Assembly: GCF_900103285.1 (NCBI RefSeq)
Contig: NZ_FNGS01000001.1
Location: forward strand, 489,515-553,514
Source of the DNA: Siphonobacter aquaeclarae
GTDB lineage: Bacteria > Bacteroidota > Bacteroidia > Cytophagales > Spirosomataceae
DNA: 64,000 nucleotides
Direction of reading: 5' to 3'
Shown here: positions 1 through 10,688 of the stretch, in pieces
Layout of the letters: every line of letters starts with the position of its first letter
Position numbering within the stretch: position 1 is the stretch's first letter
Notes under the pieces: model-generated
Seen by the model: the letters and a program-made list of their open reading frames with translations, nothing else
What the model was told of the DNA's origin: nothing
The model's database searches: none
Made by a program: the position numbers and the translations under genes

Positions 1-19
1 ATGCTAAACTCACTCGCTT

Positions 20-48
20 CGCTGGTTTCGACGGTGCTCAACCACCGG
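20..48. repeat. Single arm of a dispersed palindromic repeat
   Basis: These 29 bases differ at only two or three positions from the right arm of the inverted repeats in the array at 7084-7500; both contain the core ggtttcgac and end in gctcaaccaccgg. The matching left arm would lie outside the window. This shows that the repeat is a dispersed family and not only a local duplication. Confidence 0.7.
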
Positions 49-86
49 CTACTGCGGCAGAAAGACACAGCAGTCAAGTACATACG

Positions 87-287
87 CTATTCTCTCCCCT
101 CCTCCGCCAGCACTATCGTCAGTTTATTCGCTTCCGGTCGTACTTCTATCACCTGCCCGGGCTTGAAGCCGCATTCGGCGAGCCATTTGCCGGTGAGGCG
201 GATGTGCGGGAGATCTACCCGGCGGGAAGGAATGCTCCGGGTGAAGAGGATGTTTTCCTGAACTTTGAGTTTACGGGAGGGATACAT
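87..287 (-). CDS. SymE-like toxin-family protein
   Basis: A 66-residue protein whose second half matches the SymE toxin fold (AbrB-related beta-barrel): a run LTGKWLAECGF is followed by GQVIEV and a short C-terminal strand TIVL. SymE of Escherichia coli is an SOS-induced toxin that acts on nucleic acid, but many SymE-domain proteins in Bacteroidota are uncharacterised. I chose the ATG at 287; the frame is also open nine codons upstream to a TTG at 314. It is divergent from the XRE gene, with about 160 bases between the two starts, so the two may share a control region. No antisense antitoxin RNA can be recognised by eye. The family assignment is fairly secure; toxicity is inferred. Confidence 0.72.
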   Translation of the reverse strand: MYPSRKLKVQENILFTRSIPSRRVDLPHIRLTGKWLAECGFKPGQVIEVRPEANKLTIVLAEEGRE

Positions 288-450
288 GGCATCGGGGGTT
301 GAAGTACGCAGCAAAGGTAGCCTGCTCCGCCTGGAGCCAATTCGTAAACGGTTGCGTATTTCAGTAAAATAGGGGCCTTAGTTTACCCGTAATTTACTAT
401 ACTTACCGCTCCAACCTGTATCCATTTTTCCCCTTAAGATTGCCTCTTTT

Positions 451-858
451 ATGACCGATATGCGAATCCACGAAGGCCGGAACGTCAAGCGTTTCCGTGA
501 AATGCTGGGTATCAAGCAGGAAGCCCTCGCCGCAGAGCTGGGCACCGACTGGAACCAGAAGAAAATCTCCCTCCTCGAACAGCGCGAGCGCATCGACGCG
601 CCCATTCTCGACCAGGTATCGAAGGCGCTGAAGATACCGGTGGAGGCAATACAGAAGTTTGATGAGGAGAAGGTGGTGAATATTATTTCGAATACCGCCT
701 CCTTTGATAACTGTGAGCAGCCAGCATTCTTTAATTTCTACCCGACATTTAATCCGTTAGATAAGCTAGTGGAAGCGTATGAGGAGATAAGGAGGTTGAA
801 TGAGGCGTTGTTGAGGGAGAAGGATGAGAGAATAAAGATTCTTGAAACGAAAAGATAG
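451..858 (+). CDS. XRE-family helix-turn-helix regulator with C-terminal coiled coil
   Basis: A 135-residue protein. Residues about 8-65 form a Cro/C1-type helix-turn-helix (RFREMLGIKQEALAAELG, then KKISLLEQ and ILDQVSKALKIPVEAI). A linker follows, and the last 30 residues (about 105-135, rich in E, K, L and R) look like a coiled coil for oligomerisation. It ends 27 bases before the CD-NTase gene on the same strand and is probably its operon regulator, although this small HTH family is common in Bacteroidota outside defence loci. Base composition changes inside the gene: the HTH half is G+C-rich like the chromosome, and the second half drifts to the AT-rich composition of the genes that follow. 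Confidence 0.85.
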   Translation: MTDMRIHEGRNVKRFREMLGIKQEALAAELGTDWNQKKISLLEQRERIDAPILDQVSKALKIPVEAIQKFDEEKVVNIISNTASFDNCEQPAFFNFYPTFNPLDKLVEAYEEIRRLNEALLREKDERIKILETKR

Positions 859-885
859 TACAAATTTCAAACCACATCTTTCAAA

Positions 886-1893
886 ATGGCTATATTAAAC
901 TACACCAATAGGCTAGAAAACTTAAGAAACAGAAAGTTCGATCCAAATCTTAATGAACTTTATACTTCCAAGTATTTCAATAGGTTGGGACTGCCGGATA
1001 ACGTAAAGTATCTGTTAGAGATTACTCAACCGATTGACAAATTATCAAATGACAAATATTTGCTTGCTGCCGAACGAGTTCAAAATCACTTGGAAAGACG
1101 TCTAAATCTTCACTTTGAACGAGACTATCGCCATCAAGGGTCAATAACGACCAATACAAATATTAGAGTACACAGTGATATAGACCTACTTACTATTATA
1201 AGTAGATATCATTTTGTGCCAAATGGAGAACCTATCCTTTCTCCCTATACAGCTACAAATGCAAATGAAGATATCAAACTGCTACGAAAGCAAGCTACTC
1301 AAATATTGAAGTCGATTTATCAAGATGTGGATGACAGTGGGAAAAAAAGTATTTCTATTTTCAATAAGGATCTCCATAGAAAGGTTGATATCGTATTTTG
1401 TTTCTGGTACCACAGCAGTACCGCAACAGACAATGAAAAAGGAATCATGCTTTTCGACTTTGAAAATGAAACCAGAATTAAAGATTTTCCATTTGCTCAT
1501 ATTTCTGCTGTCAACACGAAAGGCAATTCGACATCAGATGGCTCAAAAAAGGGAATTAGAATGTTAAAGAATCTTAAAGCCGATGCAGATATTGAATTAA
1601 ACAGTTTTCAGCTCACGTCAATAGTTCATGACATTTCAAATAATAACTTACCACATTCAGTGGGCACGGAGCTATATTTGGCTCAAAATATTTCATATCA
1701 TCTAGAAAAAATCATTTCGGACTCACAATATAGAAAGGATATCCAGAGCCCGAACGGAAGAGAATATCCGTTGAAAAATGATGATTGCGTTGAACAACTC
1801 AAGAAATTGAGGAGTGAGTTAGATACGCTTATAATGGATAGCCAGCGAGAATTAAGTAAGGTTGAAGTACGAAATTTAATCCACTCAATATAA
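886..1893 (+). CDS. cdnE: CBASS cyclic-nucleotide synthase (CD-NTase, probably CdnE type)
   Basis: A 335-residue nucleotidyltransferase of the cGAS/DncV-like family. The palm signature is visible as GS at 85-86, followed by the metal-binding pair D98-x-D100 (HSDIDLL), with the third carboxylate D168 in RKVDIVF. A later basic stretch (KKGIRMLKNLK, about 221-231) fits the helical lobe of such enzymes. On phage infection CD-NTases make a cyclic oligonucleotide that switches on the neighbouring effector. Pairing with a STING-domain effector predicts c-di-GMP as product, as in described bacterial STING systems; that is inference. Only one base separates it from the effector start, so translation is probably coupled. 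It is clearly AT-rich relative to flanking genes, which suggests transfer. No Cap2/Cap3 genes are present, as in short type I CBASS. Confidence 0.88.
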   Translation: MAILNYTNRLENLRNRKFDPNLNELYTSKYFNRLGLPDNVKYLLEITQPIDKLSNDKYLLAAERVQNHLERRLNLHFERDYRHQGSITTNTNIRVHSDIDLLTIISRYHFVPNGEPILSPYTATNANEDIKLLRKQATQILKSIYQDVDDSGKKSISIFNKDLHRKVDIVFCFWYHSSTATDNEKGIMLFDFENETRIKDFPFAHISAVNTKGNSTSDGSKKGIRMLKNLKADADIELNSFQLTSIVHDISNNNLPHSVGTELYLAQNISYHLEKIISDSQYRKDIQSPNGREYPLKNDDCVEQLKKLRSELDTLIMDSQRELSKVEVRNLIHSI

Positions 1894-1894
1894 A

Positions 1895-2851
1895 ATGAAA
1901 AAGCGTCTCTTTATTGGCTCTTCATCGGAAGAATTAGAGCTTGCTCATGCGGCAAAATTGCTTCTTGAACAGGATTTTGATGTTACAATTTGGAATGATA
2001 CTGTCTGGGATAGCGCTGTTTTTCGAATCAATCAAAATTTTTTATCTGATTTGCTAAAAGCATCTTTGAAATTTGATTTCGGGATACTAATTGGGTCAAA
2101 AGACGACAAAGTTGAGTACAGGGGAACTTCTGCCCTTCAACCTAGAGATAATATACTATTTGAACTAGGTTTATTTTTAGGAAGGCTTGGTCCCAACAAA
2201 TGTGCATTCCTAATAGAAAAGGATATAAAAGTATTATCAGATGTTCAAGGCATTACTTTGGCGAGGTTTGATAAGTCGAAGCCGGCCGAATTTAACCAAG
2301 CAGTAATTCGAATACGAGATGCTTTTAATTCGAGTTCAAATAATGATATCAATTTCTTTCCTTCTGCTACATTGGCAGCAGTATATTTCGAAAACTTAGT
2401 TGCGCCGACTTGTAAGTTTCTGATAAAGAACAAAGGATATAAACTTAATGGGATACAGTACGAAAAATTTAAGTTAAAAATAATTATACCTGATAAAATT
2501 GTAGTCGATCCCAACATTGCGTTTGAAAAAATAAAATCTAAGCTTTCTACAACAAAGATTGACATCGACTACTCAGGAAGGCCTCGAAGTATTCATCATG
2601 AGACAATAATTAAAGACAACATCATCGAGTTCATTGATTTTCCAACGATTATCACAGGGATAAATTTCGCAATATCAAACTTACTTCCTAGTGAATTCAA
2701 TGATCTAACTTCTGATTATAACTTAATAGTAGAACGTGAATTAGAGAAATTCATTCTCACATTAAAGCAGCTTCTTTTACGAAATAATTTCGATGAAGAT
2801 GTAGAGATAATAAGAGAAGGCACCTTTAACAAAAACGGTGCGAACGTTTAA
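1895..2851 (+). CDS. cap12: TIR-STING effector (Cap12-type NAD+ hydrolase)
   Basis: A 318-residue two-domain protein. Residues 1 to about 145 are the TIR-like domain of the Cap12/Pycsar-effector family: it opens KRLFIGSSSEE, has WNDTVW near 34-39, and carries PRDNILFELGLFLGRLG at 83-99, in which E90 is the likely NADase catalytic glutamate. Residues about 155-318 resemble bacterial STING: an ALAxxYFEN-like start (LAAVYFENLV, 160-169), a strand KLKIIIP, a GRPR motif at 228-231, and DFPTIITG at 248-255, where STING proteins contact the cyclic dinucleotide. There are no membrane segments, so it should be soluble and cytosolic. On ligand binding such proteins form filaments and deplete NAD+, killing or arresting the infected cell. 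The AT-rich composition matches the synthase gene. Confidence 0.87.
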   Translation: MKKRLFIGSSSEELELAHAAKLLLEQDFDVTIWNDTVWDSAVFRINQNFLSDLLKASLKFDFGILIGSKDDKVEYRGTSALQPRDNILFELGLFLGRLGPNKCAFLIEKDIKVLSDVQGITLARFDKSKPAEFNQAVIRIRDAFNSSSNNDINFFPSATLAAVYFENLVAPTCKFLIKNKGYKLNGIQYEKFKLKIIIPDKIVVDPNIAFEKIKSKLSTTKIDIDYSGRPRSIHHETIIKDNIIEFIDFPTIITGINFAISNLLPSEFNDLTSDYNLIVERELEKFILTLKQLLLRNNFDEDVEIIREGTFNKNGANV

Positions 2852-2853
2852 CA

Positions 2854-2892
2854 CGGAAAAAGCCTGTAGCTATTTACTACAGGCTTTTTCCG
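2854..2892 (+). terminator. Rho-independent terminator of the CBASS operon
   Basis: A perfect 16-bp stem (cggaaaaagcctgtag against its complement) with a 7-base loop begins three bases after the TIR-STING stop codon and is followed by a T-rich tail. The convergent cation-efflux gene ends just beyond, so the hairpin may serve both directions. Confidence 0.9.
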
Positions 2893-2907
2893 TTACTTTT
2901 CATTCCC

Positions 2908-3825
2908 CTAAATCATCCACTTCCTCTCCGTCGTAAAACTAATCGTCAACCACATCGAATATTCCCCCTTAATCCTTTCATACAACTCCTGCCGGACGGC
3001 GTCGAGCTCAATCAAAGAGGTTTCCCCGGCCGACTGCGGCAGGAGAAAGTCGATCTCGACCGTGTAGCTGCGGCCGGTTTTGATGACGCGGACGATGTGG
3101 TCTTCGTAACCTTTTTCGGCGGCGAGGGCTTCGGCTGCGTCGTGGATGGCGTTTTCGATGTCGTCGTCGGGGGCAAACTGGAGTAGCTCGCGGATGTTTT
3201 TCCGGAAGGTCATCAGCGGTATCCGGATGAAAAACAGCGAGATCACCACGACCGTACCGGGATCGAGGTACGGAATGAGCCAGGCATACGCCGTACCCGC
3301 CAGTACGTAGCTCAACGAGAGCGCCGCCAATACGCCGAGGCTCAGCAGGGCGTCGAGCTGCCACTCCGTCGCTTCCACACGGAGGTACTCCGACCGGATT
3401 TCCCGGGCTTTGCGCCGAAACAATACCCAAATCCCGAGACAGACCACGATGGATGTAATGAGATACGGCAGGGCGACGTCCAACTCGACGGACTTTCCGC
3501 CGTTGAGAATATCAATCACCGACGTCGCCATCGAATACACGCATAAAAAAATCACGATAAACGACTCCACCGTTATCGTAAAGGGCTCAAACTGAGCGCG
3601 TCCGAAGGGCAGGCGGTCGTCGTCGGGCTTACGGACAAACTGCGTGATAAACAGCGATACCCCCGACAAACTAATGCCGACGAGGGAGAAGAGCGCATCG
3701 AAGATGATGGATTTGGAGTCGCCCACGATCCCGACCACAATTGCCCAGATCGTCAGCGCCGAGCCGACTCCGAGCGATAGCCGAAGCCATTTCTGTTCCT
3801 GTCGACGGTGTACCCGCAGGGTCAT
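2908..3825 (-). CDS. Cation diffusion facilitator family transporter
   Basis: A 305-residue inner-membrane protein with about six hydrophobic segments (near 13-34, 40-62, 83-104, 117-136, 155-176 and 182-202) and a soluble C-terminal domain of about 90 residues, the layout of CDF proton-coupled divalent metal exporters. Charged residues sit where metal site A lies in the family: D43 in segment two (DALFSL) and E154-x3-D158 in segment five (EWQLDALLSLG). A short cytosolic loop carries RLPFG, a CDF hallmark. The metal cannot be told; the site lacks the usual HxxxD of zinc transporters, so Mn, Fe or another ion is possible. It is a single gene with no linked metal regulator. Confidence 0.85.
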   Translation of the reverse strand: MTLRVHRRQEQKWLRLSLGVGSALTIWAIVVGIVGDSKSIIFDALFSLVGISLSGVSLFITQFVRKPDDDRLPFGRAQFEPFTITVESFIVIFLCVYSMATSVIDILNGGKSVELDVALPYLITSIVVCLGIWVLFRRKAREIRSEYLRVEATEWQLDALLSLGVLAALSLSYVLAGTAYAWLIPYLDPGTVVVISLFFIRIPLMTFRKNIRELLQFAPDDDIENAIHDAAEALAAEKGYEDHIVRVIKTGRSYTVEIDFLLPQSAGETSLIELDAVRQELYERIKGEYSMWLTISFTTERKWMI

Positions 3826-3889
3826 GACTTACACGTTTGCCCCTAAAATAGAACGCAGCCGCTTACGCCCTTCCCTTCCTCCAAAAAAA

Positions 3890-3922
3890 AGAGCAGGCCG
3901 CCCAAAACGGACGGCCTGCTCT
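3890..3922 (-). terminator. Terminator after the first large secreted protein
   Basis: An 11-bp stem (agagcaggccg and its complement) with an 11-base loop lies 18 bases beyond the stop of the minus-strand secreted-protein gene. Read on the minus strand it ends in a run of eight Ts. Confidence 0.85.
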
Positions 3923-3939
3923 ACTGCAACCAAACCAAA

Positions 3940-6813
3940 CTATTCTGCTACAAGCACCTTCACCGCACCGAGCGAAACCGCCGTTCCGTTCTCGGCCTTG
4001 AGCAGGAAGTAGCCCTTCCGGCCGCGCACGAGGTCGTCGACAGATACTTCCGTGCGGTCTTGTGAAATCGATACTTCTTTCTGTCCGATTTTTCCGCCTG
4101 TGAGGGAGTACAGCGTCAACGTAGCCGGGCCGCGGTAGTCGGGCGTATGGAGCGTCGCGGTAACATGGGCCGACGAGCGCGCCGGATTCGGGAAGACGTT
4201 CAGGGAACGGGCCTTGAAGCCATCACAGGATACCGTCACACCGACGGTCTTGCTGTAGTCAAACGTCCCGTCTTTGTCCACCATTTTCAGACGGTAGTAG
4301 TATGTTCCTTCCGGAATGTCCTTTTGGTAGAACGTGTAGGAATTGCCGGTACCGGCTGCGGGTAGTTTTCCTGCTACACCGAATTGACGGGCGTCTGCAC
4401 TTTTTTCGATGAGGAAGTAGTCAAATTTCTCTTCTTTCGACGTCAGCCAGTTGAGCGTTACGCCGCAGTTTTCGACCGTAGCCTTGAAATAGGCCAGCGT
4501 GACAGGCAGCGGACTGCCGCAGTTTTTGCTGTTGAGGTTGACCGTAACTTTCCGCGTCACGCAGCCACCCGCCAGTACCACTGTGCACACATAGGCGCCA
4601 TCGTTCGAGGCCTGGTAGCTCGGGAAATTGATCTCGCGGGAGGTACCGATGACCGCGCCGTTTTTCTCCCAGGTATAGGTGGCGTCGACCACATCTTCCA
4701 CACTCAGCAGATACGGCTGGCCGACGCAGGGCTCGGCATTCGAGGATAGTTTCAGCGGAAGCAGCTGACCGATAGACACTTGCGTAACGGCCGTATTCCC
4801 ACACTGATCCGTAATCCGGACGTCGTAATCAGTACCGGCCTCGAGGCCGTCGGCAGTATACGAAGACGGCACGTTTTCGCCTTTCACGACATAGGCCGAT
4901 TCGGGTTCGGTCGTCTTCTTCATTTCGACCTTAAACGGCCCGAAACCGGAGAACTGGAAGATGGCCTTTCCGGCGCCGGTCGGCGAGCCGTCAGGATTTT
5001 CGCAGATTACGCCGAGTTTTTTGGTGACTACCGGCGCCGTTCCGGCAGGCTGGATGGTGACGGGCTTCGTCGCTACCAGGTTCGCGATGCCGCAATCCGT
5101 ATAGTCAGCTACGCCGCGGACGGTGTAGTTGCCGGCCGGCAGGTTGATAAACGTACCGGTCAGGTTCGTGCTGATCACATTGTTGCCGGCGTCAAGAAGC
5201 TCAAAACGCACGGCGTTATATCCGTTGTAGTCCAGCGACGCCGAGATACTTCCGGTACCGCCGCAAAGCTGGGTCGTACTGGCCGACAGGGTGAATTTCA
5301 GCGGAGGCTGATCGGTTTCGTTAAGGGTAAACTGAGCCTGAGTCGGCGCGCAGCCCGCATTGGCCGGGGTCATCCGGAGGGTATAGGTACCGGGCGCGAG
5401 GGCAGGCAACTGGATGAAGCCATCCTGAATGCTGTTGGTGGTATAAACAACGTTGTTGCCGGCGTCGAGAATCTGAACCGTCGAGCCGTCGATACCGGCG
5501 TTATAACCGCGGACGTAAAGGTCCACCTTCGTCGTTCCTACGGTATTGACACACCACAAATAGCCGGCAGAGGGATAGACCTGCAGCCCATCCGACGGAA
5601 CGGGCGTATAAATCGTTGCGCTATAGGTCAGTCCGCAGGCATCCGTAACCGTATAGGCATACTGTGACGCGTACGGCACATTGGAAAATATGCTGTTGAG
5701 CGTGCCGTTGTCGTTGACCGTATGCGTAATCGGGGATCCGCCCTGCGGCGTTACGACGGCCGTCAGCGGCCAGGTAAAGTTGCCATCTGCCCAGAGCAGC
5801 AGGTTGAGCTTCGTGATACCGGAGGGCGAGCAAGGCAGAATTACACCGTTGCTCACATACAGATTCCGGGTTGGAAGGTCAAAACACTCGGTAATTTCTT
5901 CTCCGCAGGGAGAAATCGTCCGGATGGCTACGCGTTGCAACGTCGCGGGAACGGTAAACTGCAGGTCAGAGTCCTGGGTAATGGTCTTCGAAAAGAGCGG
6001 CGTAGCTCCTGACGGGACAGCACATGCAGCGCCGGGCGCGATCGAGTAGATTTCGTACTTGTAGCCGGGATTAGCTTTGTAGTCAATCGGAAAACCATTG
6101 TCCGCGCGGGAAAGGTTGGCCTGGAAGGAGTTGGTCGTACAGGTTGTCCCTGTCTGGGAGAAGCTCAGGTGCCCCATCGGATAAAGGGGTGCCAGCTCCA
6201 CGGTACGCGTCACGAAATTATTACAGGCGTCTTTCACCCGAACCTGATATGTTCCGAACTGGGTGGCGTTGAAGGTATTGGAAGACGAATAGCTGAACAG
6301 CGCGTCGTCGGCATTTGCTTCGTCCGAGAGCAGGAACGCGTATTTCAGGCCGCCGCTGCCGGGGTTTCCGCCGGTCGCAGAAGCTGTAATCGTACCGCCC
6401 TGAGCGCCGTTCTGGCACAGGTTGGAAACAGACGCATTGAGGGAAAGCGGCGTGTACTGATTCGGAATGGTGACGGAAACGTCAGCAGTTGCCGATCCGC
6501 ACGTCACCCGAAACGTATAATCTCCCGGAGGAAGGCTCGTAAAGGTCGCCGAGCTCTGCGCCGTTGTCTGATAACCGCCTGAAGAGGGGCCTGTTACAAT
6601 CTGATAGGTAGCGCCGGCGTTTCCGGTGACGTTGGAACTGATAGTAGCCGTTCCGTTAGACGGGCAGGTGGCCGGCGTAGCAGATGCCGACAGGTTTTGA
6701 ATACTCGAGGGGCACTGGGCGAAGGAATTTACCGCCAGGAAAAGCAGGGCTAATACAACGAGATAATGTGGTTTGTGTCCCACAAACCGGTAGAAGACAG
6801 GCATAATTTTCAT
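3940..6813 (-). CDS. Large secreted modular protein with T9SS type A sorting domain
   Basis: A 957-residue protein with an N-terminal signal peptide (hydrophobic stretch about 16-32, ending NSFAQC). The body consists of repeated beta-rich modules of 80-110 residues with paired cysteines, recurring LPPGDYTFRV / LAPGTYTLRM / LPAGNYTVRG strands and VxDxCGN motifs, resembling SprB-like or prealbumin-like adhesin repeats. An Ig-like module (about 690-760, ending NDGAYVCTVV) precedes a fibronectin-like segment (LPVTLAYFKA). The last 80 residues (LNVFPNPA onward) are a type A T9SS C-terminal domain, which directs export through the gliding/Por machinery and cell-surface attachment. It is a tandem paralogue of the gene at 7626-10481, so duplication is evident. 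A surface adhesin role is inference. Confidence 0.88.
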   Translation of the reverse strand: MKIMPVFYRFVGHKPHYLVVLALLFLAVNSFAQCPSSIQNLSASATPATCPSNGTATISSNVTGNAGATYQIVTGPSSGGYQTTAQSSATFTSLPPGDYTFRVTCGSATADVSVTIPNQYTPLSLNASVSNLCQNGAQGGTITASATGGNPGSGGLKYAFLLSDEANADDALFSYSSSNTFNATQFGTYQVRVKDACNNFVTRTVELAPLYPMGHLSFSQTGTTCTTNSFQANLSRADNGFPIDYKANPGYKYEIYSIAPGAACAVPSGATPLFSKTITQDSDLQFTVPATLQRVAIRTISPCGEEITECFDLPTRNLYVSNGVILPCSPSGITKLNLLLWADGNFTWPLTAVVTPQGGSPITHTVNDNGTLNSIFSNVPYASQYAYTVTDACGLTYSATIYTPVPSDGLQVYPSAGYLWCVNTVGTTKVDLYVRGYNAGIDGSTVQILDAGNNVVYTTNSIQDGFIQLPALAPGTYTLRMTPANAGCAPTQAQFTLNETDQPPLKFTLSASTTQLCGGTGSISASLDYNGYNAVRFELLDAGNNVISTNLTGTFINLPAGNYTVRGVADYTDCGIANLVATKPVTIQPAGTAPVVTKKLGVICENPDGSPTGAGKAIFQFSGFGPFKVEMKKTTEPESAYVVKGENVPSSYTADGLEAGTDYDVRITDQCGNTAVTQVSIGQLLPLKLSSNAEPCVGQPYLLSVEDVVDATYTWEKNGAVIGTSREINFPSYQASNDGAYVCTVVLAGGCVTRKVTVNLNSKNCGSPLPVTLAYFKATVENCGVTLNWLTSKEEKFDYFLIEKSADARQFGVAGKLPAAGTGNSYTFYQKDIPEGTYYYRLKMVDKDGTFDYSKTVGVTVSCDGFKARSLNVFPNPARSSAHVTATLHTPDYRGPATLTLYSLTGGKIGQKEVSISQDRTEVSVDDLVRGRKGYFLLKAENGTAVSLGAVKVLVAE

Positions 6814-7083
6814 CGTTTGCAGGTTTCCCCGCCGTGAAAGGATAAATTCTCGAATTCCAGACTAATCAAAAGTCAATTCAAAGGTAAAAATCAAGTAGTC
6901 GCTAGTAATTATTTTTCGATAAGTGGAATAGAACGTCCGATTATCGTCCATTTTCCCCCGCCGAAGACGCAGAAACCGGCATAAATGCGCAGGTAGTATG
7001 CGTGCATACGGGTTTGAGGATACGTTGGGTTTTCAGTTTTCGGTTTGACTGTTTTCGGTTGTCCCTCGATGCCCATGCCCCAT
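6814..7083. other. Non-coding upstream region of the first large secreted protein
   Basis: About 270 bases. The part next to the gene (6840-6960) is AT-rich and probably holds its promoter, though no confident -33/-7 pair could be picked. From 6961 it becomes G+C-rich and runs into the repeat array. No credible gene is visible. Confidence 0.6.
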
Positions 7084-7500
7084 GCGCAATAGCCGGTGGT
7101 TGAGCCCCGTCGAAACCAGCGTGGCGAGAGCGGGAAGGATGAAAGAAATACGGCTGCCGGTGGTTTCGACGGGGCTCAATCACCGGGGGCGTCGTCGTCG
7201 TTGCGGTGTGTAACCCCATGCCCTCTGCTCCTGGCCCTTTGCGCAATAGCCGGTGGTTGAGCTACGTCGAAACCAGCGTGGCGAGAGCCGGAAGGATAAA
7301 AGAAATACGGCTGCCGGTGGTTTCGGCGGGGCTCAACCACCGGGGGCGGCGTCGTCGTTGCGGTGTGTAACCCCATGCCCTCTGCTCCTGGCCCTTTGCG
7401 CAATAGCCGGTGGTTGAGCTACGTCGAAACCAGCGTGGCGAGAGCGGGAAGGATGAAAGAAATACGGCTGCCGCTGGTTTCGACGTAGCTCAACCACCGG
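7084..7500. repeat. Array of 157-bp tandem repeats with long internal palindromes
   Basis: Units begin with gcgcaatagccggtggttga at 7084, 7241 and 7398, giving a constant period of 157 bases; the third is truncated after its palindrome. Each contains an inverted repeat whose arms start ccggtggttgagc and end gctcaaccaccgg, separated by about 40 bases. In unit three the arms (7407-7435 and 7472-7500) match perfectly over 29 bases. In unit one (7093-7118 and 7161-7186) there is a single mismatch although the central triplet differs (ccc rather than tac), so both arms changed together. Unit two is less well paired. Short open frames crossing the units are by-products of the repetition. The array lies between two paralogous secreted-protein genes. 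Confidence 0.9.
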
Positions 7501-7539
7501 GGTGCGGTGCTCGTCTTCGCTGCTTCGCAAAAAGCCGGC

Positions 7540-7576
7540 GGCCCGGCGTTTCGAAATAAGGTCGAAACACCGGGCC
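7540..7576 (-). terminator. Hairpin downstream of the second large secreted protein
   Basis: Two 7-bp blocks (ggcccgg with ccgggcc, gtttcga with tcgaaac), offset by one unpaired base on each side, form a hairpin 50 bases beyond the stop of the minus-strand gene at 7626. It lacks a clear T-run, so it may be a degenerate member of the neighbouring palindrome family and not a true terminator. Confidence 0.45.
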
Positions 7577-7625
7577 GTCAACAGAACTCAAAACATTAAA
7601 CTCAAAACTCCAAACTCCCAAAACC

Positions 7626-10481
7626 CTACTCCACCACCAGCTTTACCGCTCCAAAACCTTCCGCCTTCAGCAGGAAGTAGCCCTTCTGACCGCGGAGGAG
7701 GTCTTCGACGCTGACTTCCGTATTGTCCTGCTGAATAGAGATATTCTTCTGTCCGACTTTTCCGCCTGTAGCGGTATAAAGCGTCAGCGAGAGAGGTCCG
7801 CGGTAATCAGGGGTATGGAGCGTCGCAGTGATCCGGTCGGTACGCCGGGCGGGGTTCGGGAATACGTTGAGCGCTCCCGGTGCGAATCCGTCACACACGA
7901 CGTTCAACCCTACCGTTTTGCTATATTCGAAGGTAGCGTCCTTGTCTACCATCTTCAGGCGGTAGTAATAGGTTCCGACCGGGAGATCCTTCTGGTAGAA
8001 CACATAAGTCTGGCCGGAGCCAGTTGCCGGCAGTTTGCCGACGGTTCCGAATTGCCGTGCATCTGCACTTTTTTCGATGAGGAAGTAGTCAAATCCATCC
8101 TCCTTTGCCGTACGCCATTCCAGTGTCGCGCCGCAATTTTCGACCCGCGCCTTGAAGTACACCAGCGTAACCGGCAGAACCGCGCCGCATTGGGTACTGC
8201 TGAGGTTGACGGTAATCTTTCGGGTCACGCAGCCACCTGCCAGGACCACCGTGCAGATGTAGCTTCCATCGTTCGAGGCATTGTAGCTCGGGAATGTCAC
8301 CTCGCGGGATGTAGCGATGACCGTTCCGTTCTTTTCCCAGGTGTAGGTGGCATCGACGACGTCCTCGACACCCAGCACATAGGGCTGACCCTGGCAGGGC
8401 TGATACTGGTTGGTCAGGTTGAGCGGCAGCAACGCACCGATCGATACCTGGGTAACAGCCGTGTTGCCGCATTGGTCGGTAATCCGGACGTCGTAGTCGG
8501 TTCCGGCATCGAGCCCATCAGCGGTGAAATCCGCCGGTACGTTCGTTCCTTTCACGACATAGGCCGTTTCCGGTTCCGTTGTCTTCTTCATCTCAACTTT
8601 AAACGGTCCGAAACCGGAGAACTGGAAGATGGCCTTGCCGGTCGACATCGGTGTACCATCTGCATTTTCGCAGATGACGCCAAGCTTTTTCGTCACTACC
8701 GGCGCCGTTCCGGCGGGTTGGATGGTCTGCTGTACTTGCCCGGTAAGGTTCGGAATACCGCAGGAAGCGTAGTTAGCCGTTGCCTGAACGGTGTAGGTAC
8801 CCGCCGGCAGGTTAATAAACGTACCGGAAGTATTCGTGCTCACGGTAGCGCCGCTGCCGTCGAGCAGGGCATAGGTGATGGTTTGGGATCCGTTGTATAT
8901 CAGCGTGGACGTAATCGATCCTGTTCCTCCGCACAGCTGCGTAGCAGTGGCAGAAAGAGTGAAATTCAACGGGGGACTATCTGTATCGCTGATCACAAAA
9001 GATGCGTCGAGCGGCGCGCAGGAACCGCTGCTTGGCACAATATGAATCGAGTAGGTACCGGGAGCCAGGGGAGGCAGGGCTATATAGCCGTCGTAGCTAC
9101 CCGTTCCGGTATATACCACATTGCCGCCGGCGTCGCGTACTTCAATCGCGGCTCCACTTACGCCAGGGTTGTAACCCCGCAGGTAAAGCTCTACCTGCTT
9201 CAAACCGACTGTATTCACACAGCTGAGTGAACCGCTGGTTACATTAACAGCAAAACCGTCGCCGGCTGTGGGGGCTGTGACGGTGTCCGTGAATACCTGC
9301 CCGCAGGCGTCGGTCAGCGTATAGGTATACGACGCCGCCAGTGGCATATCCGGAAAGGCGTACAGCAATTCGTTGTTGTTTGCGACGACATGCGTCACCG
9401 GCGTTCCGCCCTGGGGCGTTACGGTAGCTGTGATCGGAAAAACATAATCCTGTTGTGCCCACATCAGAAAATTGGCAGTAACGTTACCGGAACCGTCGCA
9501 ATTCATCGTGATTCCGAAGGTGGAATAAAAATTCCGCGGTGCAATGTCAAAACACTCAATGGTCTCTTCTCCGCAGGGTGATACCGTCCGGATCAAAATG
9601 CGCGGCGCTGTGGAAGAAAGGGTAAACTGAAGGTCAGATGCCTGGGTAATGGTTTTGGCAATGACTGGGGTACCTCCTGACGGAACGGCGCACGTAGCAC
9701 CCGCGGCAAGTTCATATACCTCGTAGTAATAACCCGGCGAAGCAGTATAATCAATGGACACATTGTCATCGGCTCGGGTGAGGTAGGCACTGTACGTGGT
9801 AGTCGAGCAGGTATAACCGGTCTTGTTGAAACCGACATGCCCGGCAGGACTCAACGGCGCCAGCTCTACGGTCCTGGTTACGAAGTTGTTACAGGCGTCC
9901 TTTACACGAACCTGATACGTGCCGTAGGCAGTCGCCTGAAAAGTCGCGGAGGAGGAATAGGTAAACTGTGCGTCATCGGCATTGGGTTGATCAGATAACA
10001 AAAAAGCATACTGCAGACCGGTCGAACCCGGGTTGCCGCCGGTAGCCGACGCCGTGATGGTCCCGCCGGCCTGACCGTTCTGGCAGAGATTGGAAACGGC
10101 GGTCGACAACTGTAGCGGCGTATACTGATTGTCGATCGTAGCCGACACGTCCGTAGTAGCTGTTCCACAGGTAATCCGGAAGGTATACGCACCCGGAGGC
10201 AGGCTTGTAAACGTGGTTCCGCTTTGGGCGGTCGTCTGATACCCGCCGGACGCCGGCCCGGAGACGATCTGATACGTCGCACCCGCATTTCCCGATACAT
10301 TCGAACTGATCGAAACCGTACCGTTTGACGGGCATGTTGCCGGTGTGGCAGACGTCGAAGCATTCTGAATCGATGCCGGGCACTGCGAAAGTGCAGAAAA
10401 AGCGGTTAACAGAAGGGGAAGAATCAGGGCATAATGCACCCTGGGTTTGCCGGAGACAAACCTTAGCAATAAACGTATCAT
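7626..10481 (-). CDS. Large secreted modular protein with T9SS type A sorting domain (paralogue)
   Basis: A 951-residue protein counted from the ATG at 10481, which directly precedes a signal peptide (hydrophobic stretch ending FSALSQC). The frame stays open 31 codons upstream, but that extension would bury the signal peptide and is rejected. It has the same module order as the 3940-6813 gene: cysteine-paired beta modules, recurring LPPGAYTFRI / LAPGTYSIHI / LPAGTYTVQA strands, an Ig-like module (NDGSYICTVV), LPVTLVYFKA, and a C-terminal LNVFPNPA sorting domain for type IX secretion. The two proteins are alignable end to end, with the best conservation in the last 350 residues, so they arose by tandem duplication. 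A surface-adhesion role is inferred from architecture only. Confidence 0.88.
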   Translation of the reverse strand: MIRLLLRFVSGKPRVHYALILPLLLTAFSALSQCPASIQNASTSATPATCPSNGTVSISSNVSGNAGATYQIVSGPASGGYQTTAQSGTTFTSLPPGAYTFRITCGTATTDVSATIDNQYTPLQLSTAVSNLCQNGQAGGTITASATGGNPGSTGLQYAFLLSDQPNADDAQFTYSSSATFQATAYGTYQVRVKDACNNFVTRTVELAPLSPAGHVGFNKTGYTCSTTTYSAYLTRADDNVSIDYTASPGYYYEVYELAAGATCAVPSGGTPVIAKTITQASDLQFTLSSTAPRILIRTVSPCGEETIECFDIAPRNFYSTFGITMNCDGSGNVTANFLMWAQQDYVFPITATVTPQGGTPVTHVVANNNELLYAFPDMPLAASYTYTLTDACGQVFTDTVTAPTAGDGFAVNVTSGSLSCVNTVGLKQVELYLRGYNPGVSGAAIEVRDAGGNVVYTGTGSYDGYIALPPLAPGTYSIHIVPSSGSCAPLDASFVISDTDSPPLNFTLSATATQLCGGTGSITSTLIYNGSQTITYALLDGSGATVSTNTSGTFINLPAGTYTVQATANYASCGIPNLTGQVQQTIQPAGTAPVVTKKLGVICENADGTPMSTGKAIFQFSGFGPFKVEMKKTTEPETAYVVKGTNVPADFTADGLDAGTDYDVRITDQCGNTAVTQVSIGALLPLNLTNQYQPCQGQPYVLGVEDVVDATYTWEKNGTVIATSREVTFPSYNASNDGSYICTVVLAGGCVTRKITVNLSSTQCGAVLPVTLVYFKARVENCGATLEWRTAKEDGFDYFLIEKSADARQFGTVGKLPATGSGQTYVFYQKDLPVGTYYYRLKMVDKDATFEYSKTVGLNVVCDGFAPGALNVFPNPARRTDRITATLHTPDYRGPLSLTLYTATGGKVGQKNISIQQDNTEVSVEDLLRGQKGYFLLKAEGFGAVKLVVE

Positions 10482-10688
10482 ACAGGTGGTTTTGTGAGGG
10501 TCACCCCTCGGCATAGAAAGGAATGTTAGTAACCAAACATCAATCAAACATACCTTTCTACTCTGCCTTCGCAACCCCGTATTTCGACGTTAGGCCTCCA
10601 TCAGTCGACAAATAGACATAAACACACGATAATTGGTATTATAATTTCAGTAACAATACAGTATTTATAGTATATTAGTACTAGTTTA

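Follow-up and report, generated by a model that had tools for sequence, protein, structure and literature searches.

Gene content and organization of the locus

In the window, i.e. the whole 64,000-nucleotide stretch of Siphonobacter aquaeclarae DNA that was analysed, the open reading frame (ORF) list contains three rightward genes, which encode an XRE-type regulator, a CD-NTase and a TIR-STING protein. The features of the locus are as follows:

451-858, + strand: XRE-type regulator gene, 135 aa (HTH_3 at 2e-4, slightly under Pfam's cut-off; PADLOC HTH_VI at 1.9e-7)
886-1893, + strand: CD-NTase, CdnE-like and STING-associated, 335 aa (PADLOC cyclase PDLC00807 at 4e-134; predicted fold)
1177-1185, + strand: D98-I99-D100 metal-binding motif of the CD-NTase (by position; invariant in 29 proteins)
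1387-1389, + strand: D168, third acidic residue of the CD-NTase (by position; invariant in 29 proteins)
1895-2851, + strand: TIR-STING effector (Cap12), 318 aa (NCBIfam NF050171.1 at 489.3 bits, cut-off 450; PADLOC PDLC00729 at 3.3e-116)
1904-2275, + strand: TIR domain, residues 4-127 (PF10137 CAP12-PCTIR_TIR at 1.6e-29, whole model)
1991-2032, + strand: BB loop, residues 33-46 (the RPR-lid clade typically has an insertion of 4-6 residues here)
2162-2164, + strand: E90, predicted catalytic glutamate of the TIR domain (aligned to ElSTING residue 86)
2360-2767, + strand: STING domain, residues 156-291 (PF20300, prok_STING, at 6.4e-38, model positions 1-137 of 137)
2579-2587, + strand: lid motif R229-P230-R231 (RXR, class II)
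2636-2638, + strand: D248, predicted to contact guanine N2 (33 of 35 RPR rows have D)
2853-2893, no strand assigned: terminator hairpin with a 17-bp stem and a 7-nt loop, common to the operon and the convergent gene 2908-3825

The stop codon of the CD-NTase is separated from the ATG of the STING gene by the single base 1894, as the initial annotation had it. The terminator it proposed is also present, with a stem of 17 bp and not 16 bp; the stem is perfect (dG -27.7 kcal/mol, z -10.3, 0 of 200 shuffles equally good), and the hairpin stands between the operon and a convergent cation-efflux gene (2908-3825). Other CBASS contain ancillary genes of the Cap2/Cap3 or HORMA/TRIP13 types, and none of these adjoins the cyclase and effector genes, whose neighbours are the XRE gene and the cation-efflux gene. 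The GC content is about 0.35 from about position 700, within the XRE gene, to about 2900, and about 0.55 on either side. Only short, imperfect direct repeats were found in 1-4200, and no repeat joins both edges of the AT-rich stretch.

Elsewhere in the window, two long similar proteins are encoded side by side on the minus strand (3940-6813, 957 aa; 7626-10574, 982 aa), and ORFs around 6941-7581, between their genes, contain short repeated peptides.

The CD-NTase and the TIR-STING effector

The identity proposed for the CD-NTase is confirmed by HMM search, with the match to the PADLOC cyclase model; there was no meaningful Pfam match, and NCBIfam scores were below the cut-offs. D98, D100 and D168 are intact at the residues previously named, downstream of a G85-S86 motif, and all five residues (G85, S86, D98, D100, D168) are invariant in an alignment of 29 proteins. 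The enzyme carries the GS...DxD motif plus a third acidic residue by which a TIR-STING CBASS (Cap12) cyclase is recognised. Its predicted fold (pLDDT 85.9) is nearest to 6wt9 (TM-score 0.81 by query, 0.90 by target) and then to 6wt8 (0.79 by query, 0.74 by target), both of which are titled STING-associated CdnE c-di-GMP synthase in the PDB. The best solved relative, 6wt9, is only 32% identical, and because this cyclase lineage has no close solved member, the product of the CD-NTase is deduced from its partners. STING-associated CdnEs reportedly make c-di-GMP, a result credited to Morehouse 2020. The same is stated in the introduction of PMC10739871, and a c-di-GMP result for ElCdnE is given in PMC12421889.

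In the effector, a CAP12-type TIR domain is fused to a prokaryotic STING domain, the architecture that defines TIR-STING CBASS (Cap12), and the Pfam, PADLOC and NCBIfam matches, together with the nearest solved relatives of both proteins, support the identity given to the operon. The pair is a bacterial counterpart of cGAS-STING, in which the enzyme that makes the signal stands next to the protein that senses it, and its family is known to act against phages. The nearest solved relatives of the effector are 9lmq and 9lmr (TIR-STING), 8hy9 (c-di-GMP-bound STING) and 6wt5 (STING receptor). Residues 155-318 had been assigned to STING; prok_STING was found over 156-291 and the Cap12 cut-off was passed, while the description of this part as short and distinct is wrong, with prok_STING matched across the entire model. 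The full-length predicted model is poor (pLDDT 74, pTM 0.53), so no claim here uses its domain arrangement.

The candidate NADase glutamate E90 is present and, in a phmmer alignment against 9lmq, falls on the catalytic residue 86 of ElSTING, while W33 falls on residue 34 and F43 on residue 39. According to PMC12421889, E86 is the catalytic residue of ElSTING, and W34 and F39 are BB-loop residues believed to bind NAD+. Among proteins with the same R-P-R lid (RPR proteins), E90, taken as the catalytic glutamate of the TIR NADase, is invariant (n=28), and W38 in the BB loop is invariant or nearly so (n=28). Every one of the 35 RPR rows has 24 residues in the segment aligned to residues 29-52. Of the 16 other rows, 15 have 18-20 there and L029 has 9, and on the STING tree the BB-loop insertion is a single event. 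When the BB loop of SfSTING was replaced, NADase activity was lost and filaments were kept, as described in PMC9402430; the RPR clade has its insertion in this loop, which gates the NADase in SfSTING.

Lid classes and the pairing of synthases with receptors

The RXR motif in the beta-strand lid (R229-P230-R231) places the effector in class II of the bacterial STINGs as defined in PMC8748872. According to that source, class I STINGs have an RX(Y/F) lid and are c-di-GMP-specific, and a preference for 3'3'-cGAMP was proposed for class II, with its RXR lid, from FsSTING; STING lids outside both class motifs are mentioned in PMC10739871. D248 matches RiSTING D252 by spacing and is replaced by E in two of 35 RPR rows (L062 and L071), and a guanine N2 contact by the equivalent residue is described for relatives (PMC8748872, PMC10739871). 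At position 168, aligned to the phenylalanine that stacks in RiSTING, 29 of the 35 RPR rows carry L and six carry F.

A profile scan of genome contigs with an alignment of eight RPR STINGs yielded 36 loci. One is a TIR-only match, and the other 35 are full-length relatives with 49-64% identity. After further loci were added and duplicates removed, STING was present in 66 of 67 loci and an adjoining cyclase in 51, and 50 entered the trees. Left out before the trees were eight same-genome duplicate loci, the own-genome copies L001 and L033, a false match (L019), the TIR-only match (L083), a locus with no STING by profile search (L032), 15 STING loci without a cyclase in the fetched stretch, and L029, which is divergent and not RPR.

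The 35 RPR STINGs group in a single clade (100/100), but the cyclases beside them are split: 28 belong to a clade of 33 rows (100/100), and the remaining seven, including that of the window, fall within a clade of 14 rows (100/99). The window cyclase is 48-55% identical to members of the 14-row clade and 27-34% identical to those of the 33-row clade, to which the solved CgCdnE and FsCdnE belong by similarity; for example, L048 of the 33-row clade matches 6wt9 at 1.2e-103 and 6wt8 at 9.4e-65. The STING lids paired with the 14-row lineage are RPR in seven cases, RSY in four (two of these STINGs, L034 and L035, are identical) and RKH in three, and the RSY lids are of class I type. The RKH-lid TIR-STINGs beside window-lineage cyclases (L003, L006, L042) fit neither class of PMC8748872.

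For groups named after the identity table and the trees were seen, the AU test rejects as a single clade the STINGs beside the 14 cyclases (p 3e-8), the seven RPR STINGs beside window-lineage cyclases (p 6e-4), the same seven minus the window (p 3e-4) or plus L064 (p 1.4e-3), and the RPR-paired cyclases (p 4e-6); the trees carry a long-branch warning that includes the window row (0.60 and 0.73). In L064 (Flavobacterium humi), the STING lies inside the partners of the window lineage (100/97) and the cyclase belongs to the other lineage (100/99). L012 has an RGY-lid STING of class I type, and its cyclase groups as sister to the cyclases from two RPR operons (100/99). The STING and CD-NTase genes of L012 (G234:C23, ~413400-415400) are convergent and do not form one operon.

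The synthase and the receptor of the window come from lineages that pair differently elsewhere, and the trees indicate that synthases and receptors have been exchanged repeatedly across lid classes. Such exchange would be easiest to understand if the exchanged partners had one messenger in common, which is what we infer. Effector exchange among CBASS cyclases in general is known, and a narrow literature search found no description of synthases and receptors swapping partners across lid classes. The operon is an ordinary TIR-STING CBASS, and its main interest lies in the cyclase lineage and the partner exchange: with one cyclase lineage coupled to RPR, RSY and RKH lids, the class I / class II ligand question is directly testable.

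In two other loci (L014, L017), the domain N-terminal to STING is not the CAP12 TIR but one that we take to be deoxyribosyltransferase-like, and no cyclase was found in the short stretches. Fusions of this kind are mentioned in PMC10732462.

Distribution and probable horizontal acquisition

Bacterial STING systems had been called rare, which is fair: among 390 genomes sampled from the order, 19 have a prok_STING match, as do 16 of 395 from the class, the two samples having some genomes in common. In the order sample, 18 matches are over the cut-off, and the remaining one falls in a transglycosylase-like ORF that is unrelated. TIR-STING has no match in the five congeners, and elsewhere in the family full-length matches reach ~34% identity at best, so the operon looks horizontally acquired. 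Mobile carriage was considered and rejected. Neither phages nor viral contigs gave a STING relative, the latter in a single-protein query that detects only close ones, and the plasmid records matched by the CD-NTase, 50 in number, are all at <60% identity, the ten listed being at 27-30%.

The XRE gene and its family

The operon does lie behind an XRE gene, and this gene is not conserved in operons of this kind. When the XRE protein was searched by tblastn against 41 stretches, which include 34 distinct informative STING loci, no match was below E 0.09. Not counted as informative were L046 and L047 (duplicates of L048 and L061) and the TIR-only L083, and L049, L050, L053 and L069 are uninformative because they contain <1.4 kb upstream of STING.

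Homologues of the XRE gene exist in 73 of 222 family genomes, with up to 11 copies each and three in the host genome. Besides the window copy, 45 were fetched, of which 6 come from the genus (two in the host genome). Six further genomes supplied the other 39, and four of the six are represented by all their copies. The genes behind the copies vary. DUF1016/YhcG nucleases follow 4 of 46 copies and AAA-type ATPases are also present; SIR2, AIPR, MNT-type and HigB-like genes occur once each, and in some places housekeeping-type genes follow, e.g. glycosyl hydrolase 3 and DPP-IV. The XRE gene is one copy of a multi-copy regulator family whose members precede genes of various kinds, including defence-like and toxin-antitoxin-like ones.

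In two genomes with every copy scanned (8 and 10 copies), PADLOC models match at 1e-5 in 5 of 18 first downstream ORFs and 1 of 18 nearest upstream ORFs, raw counts from a comparison not planned beforehand. In the pooled scan, 46 downstream ORFs hit 179 PADLOC models and 43 upstream ORFs, a set that omits the window's own, hit 20; these model counts are inflated because the models are redundant. The complete sets of G811 (10 copies) and G869 (5) were scanned in pooled form only. A role of the XRE gene as a leader of defence genes is a lead only.

The HTH half is GC-richer than the rest of the gene in all seven genus copies (0.52-0.56 vs 0.23-0.48) and in 42 of 46 copies overall, where third positions average 0.558 vs 0.513; outside the genus, amino-acid make-up may explain the contrast, because third positions differ little. 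In three copies from two congeners, residues 8-75 are 100% identical with 83-91% of codons the same, and the values for residues 100-132 are 67-81% and 53-59%. Over 142 within-genome pairs, however, same-codon identity is lower in the HTH half (0.54 vs 0.62), which argues against recombination there as a general process. A narrow literature search on this family found nothing. A broader idea, which we regard as unlikely, is that interchangeable accessory modules plug into the XRE gene as a regulatory "socket" used across the family: the HTH half would remain host-like as modules are replaced, with the break in composition lying within the XRE gene, and the XRE protein would restrain whichever module follows. 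Here that module would be the mosaic CBASS, which combines one cyclase lineage with a receptor that usually has another as its partner.

Proposed mechanism and alternatives

Very probably, the locus is a two-gene TIR-STING CBASS that signals with c-di-GMP and was acquired horizontally as an AT-rich cassette. Its gene content, intact catalytic and lid residues and family membership are direct observations. By analogy with characterised relatives, phage infection would lead the CD-NTase to join two GTP into 3'3'-c-di-GMP, which would bind the STING dimer beneath the R229-P230-R231 lid, where R231 may stack on guanine while R229 and D248 read the guanine edges. The closed STING dimers would then stack into filaments, in which E90 would lie at composite active sites built by adjacent TIR domains and NAD+ would be hydrolysed, so that growth may halt ahead of phage release (abortive infection).

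The initial annotation suggested that the ligand could differ from c-di-GMP, and a version of this system in which the cyclase makes 3'3'-cGAMP or another dinucleotide, read by the RPR lid, is a possible but not favoured alternative that we consider improbable. The class II lid, for which PMC8748872 proposes 3'3'-cGAMP, and the lack of a close solved member in the cyclase lineage fit this reading. However, the proposal rests on FsSTING, which is distant from the window STING (22% identity), whereas RiSTING, which ranks second among the PDB sequence matches to the window TIR-STING and has an identical GRPR lid (RXR by R233 and R235), was solved with c-di-GMP and binds it with a Kd of 0.1 nM by ITC (PMC10739871), which argues against a 3'3'-cGAMP preference for RPR lids. 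Moreover, the window cyclase lineage also adjoins class I lids. The usual c-di-GMP is most likely the messenger here too, judging from these relatives. The host genome has no GGDEF match, which would leave the messenger free to serve as an alarm. This absence discriminates little, because 216 of 222 family genomes also have no match; the 6 with a match are not among the 20 family genomes matching the window TIR-STING (several of them TIR-only).

Slightly less probable still is that the operon is a recent insert, silent or decaying in its host. Its absence in 5 of 5 congeners and its AT-rich composition within a GC-richer genome are compatible with this, but both frames are open, the catalytic and lid residues are unchanged, and the tight coupling of the CD-NTase and STING genes and the terminator are preserved.

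Comparison with known systems

The window system shares features with several characterised systems. Capnocytophaga granulosa CgSTING (6wt5) has the same GRPR lid and a STING domain 44-48% identical in structure alignments, and CgCdnE (6wt9) has the same fold as the window cyclase. However, CgCdnE groups with the other cyclase lineage, and the window cyclase matches 6wt9 at 2.5e-31, compared with 1.2e-103 for L048. Riemerella anatipestifer RiSTING (8hy9) likewise has an RPR lid, with a STING domain 49% identical to that of the window. The CdnE and TIR-STING of Epilithonimonas lactis (9lmq, 9lmr) share the two-gene architecture and the aligned catalytic glutamate, and the TIR-STING proteins match over their full length at 6.6e-43, but the lid of the E. 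lactis protein is RSF (class I), and its BB loop as aligned is shorter by 5 residues. Sphingobacterium faecium TIR-STING (7un8), described in PMC9402430 as a filament-forming NADase of a CBASS operon, is likewise a TIR-STING; it is 28% identical to the window protein, is 6 residues shorter in the BB loop region and, according to PMC8748872, has an RXF lid, unlike the RPR lid of the window.
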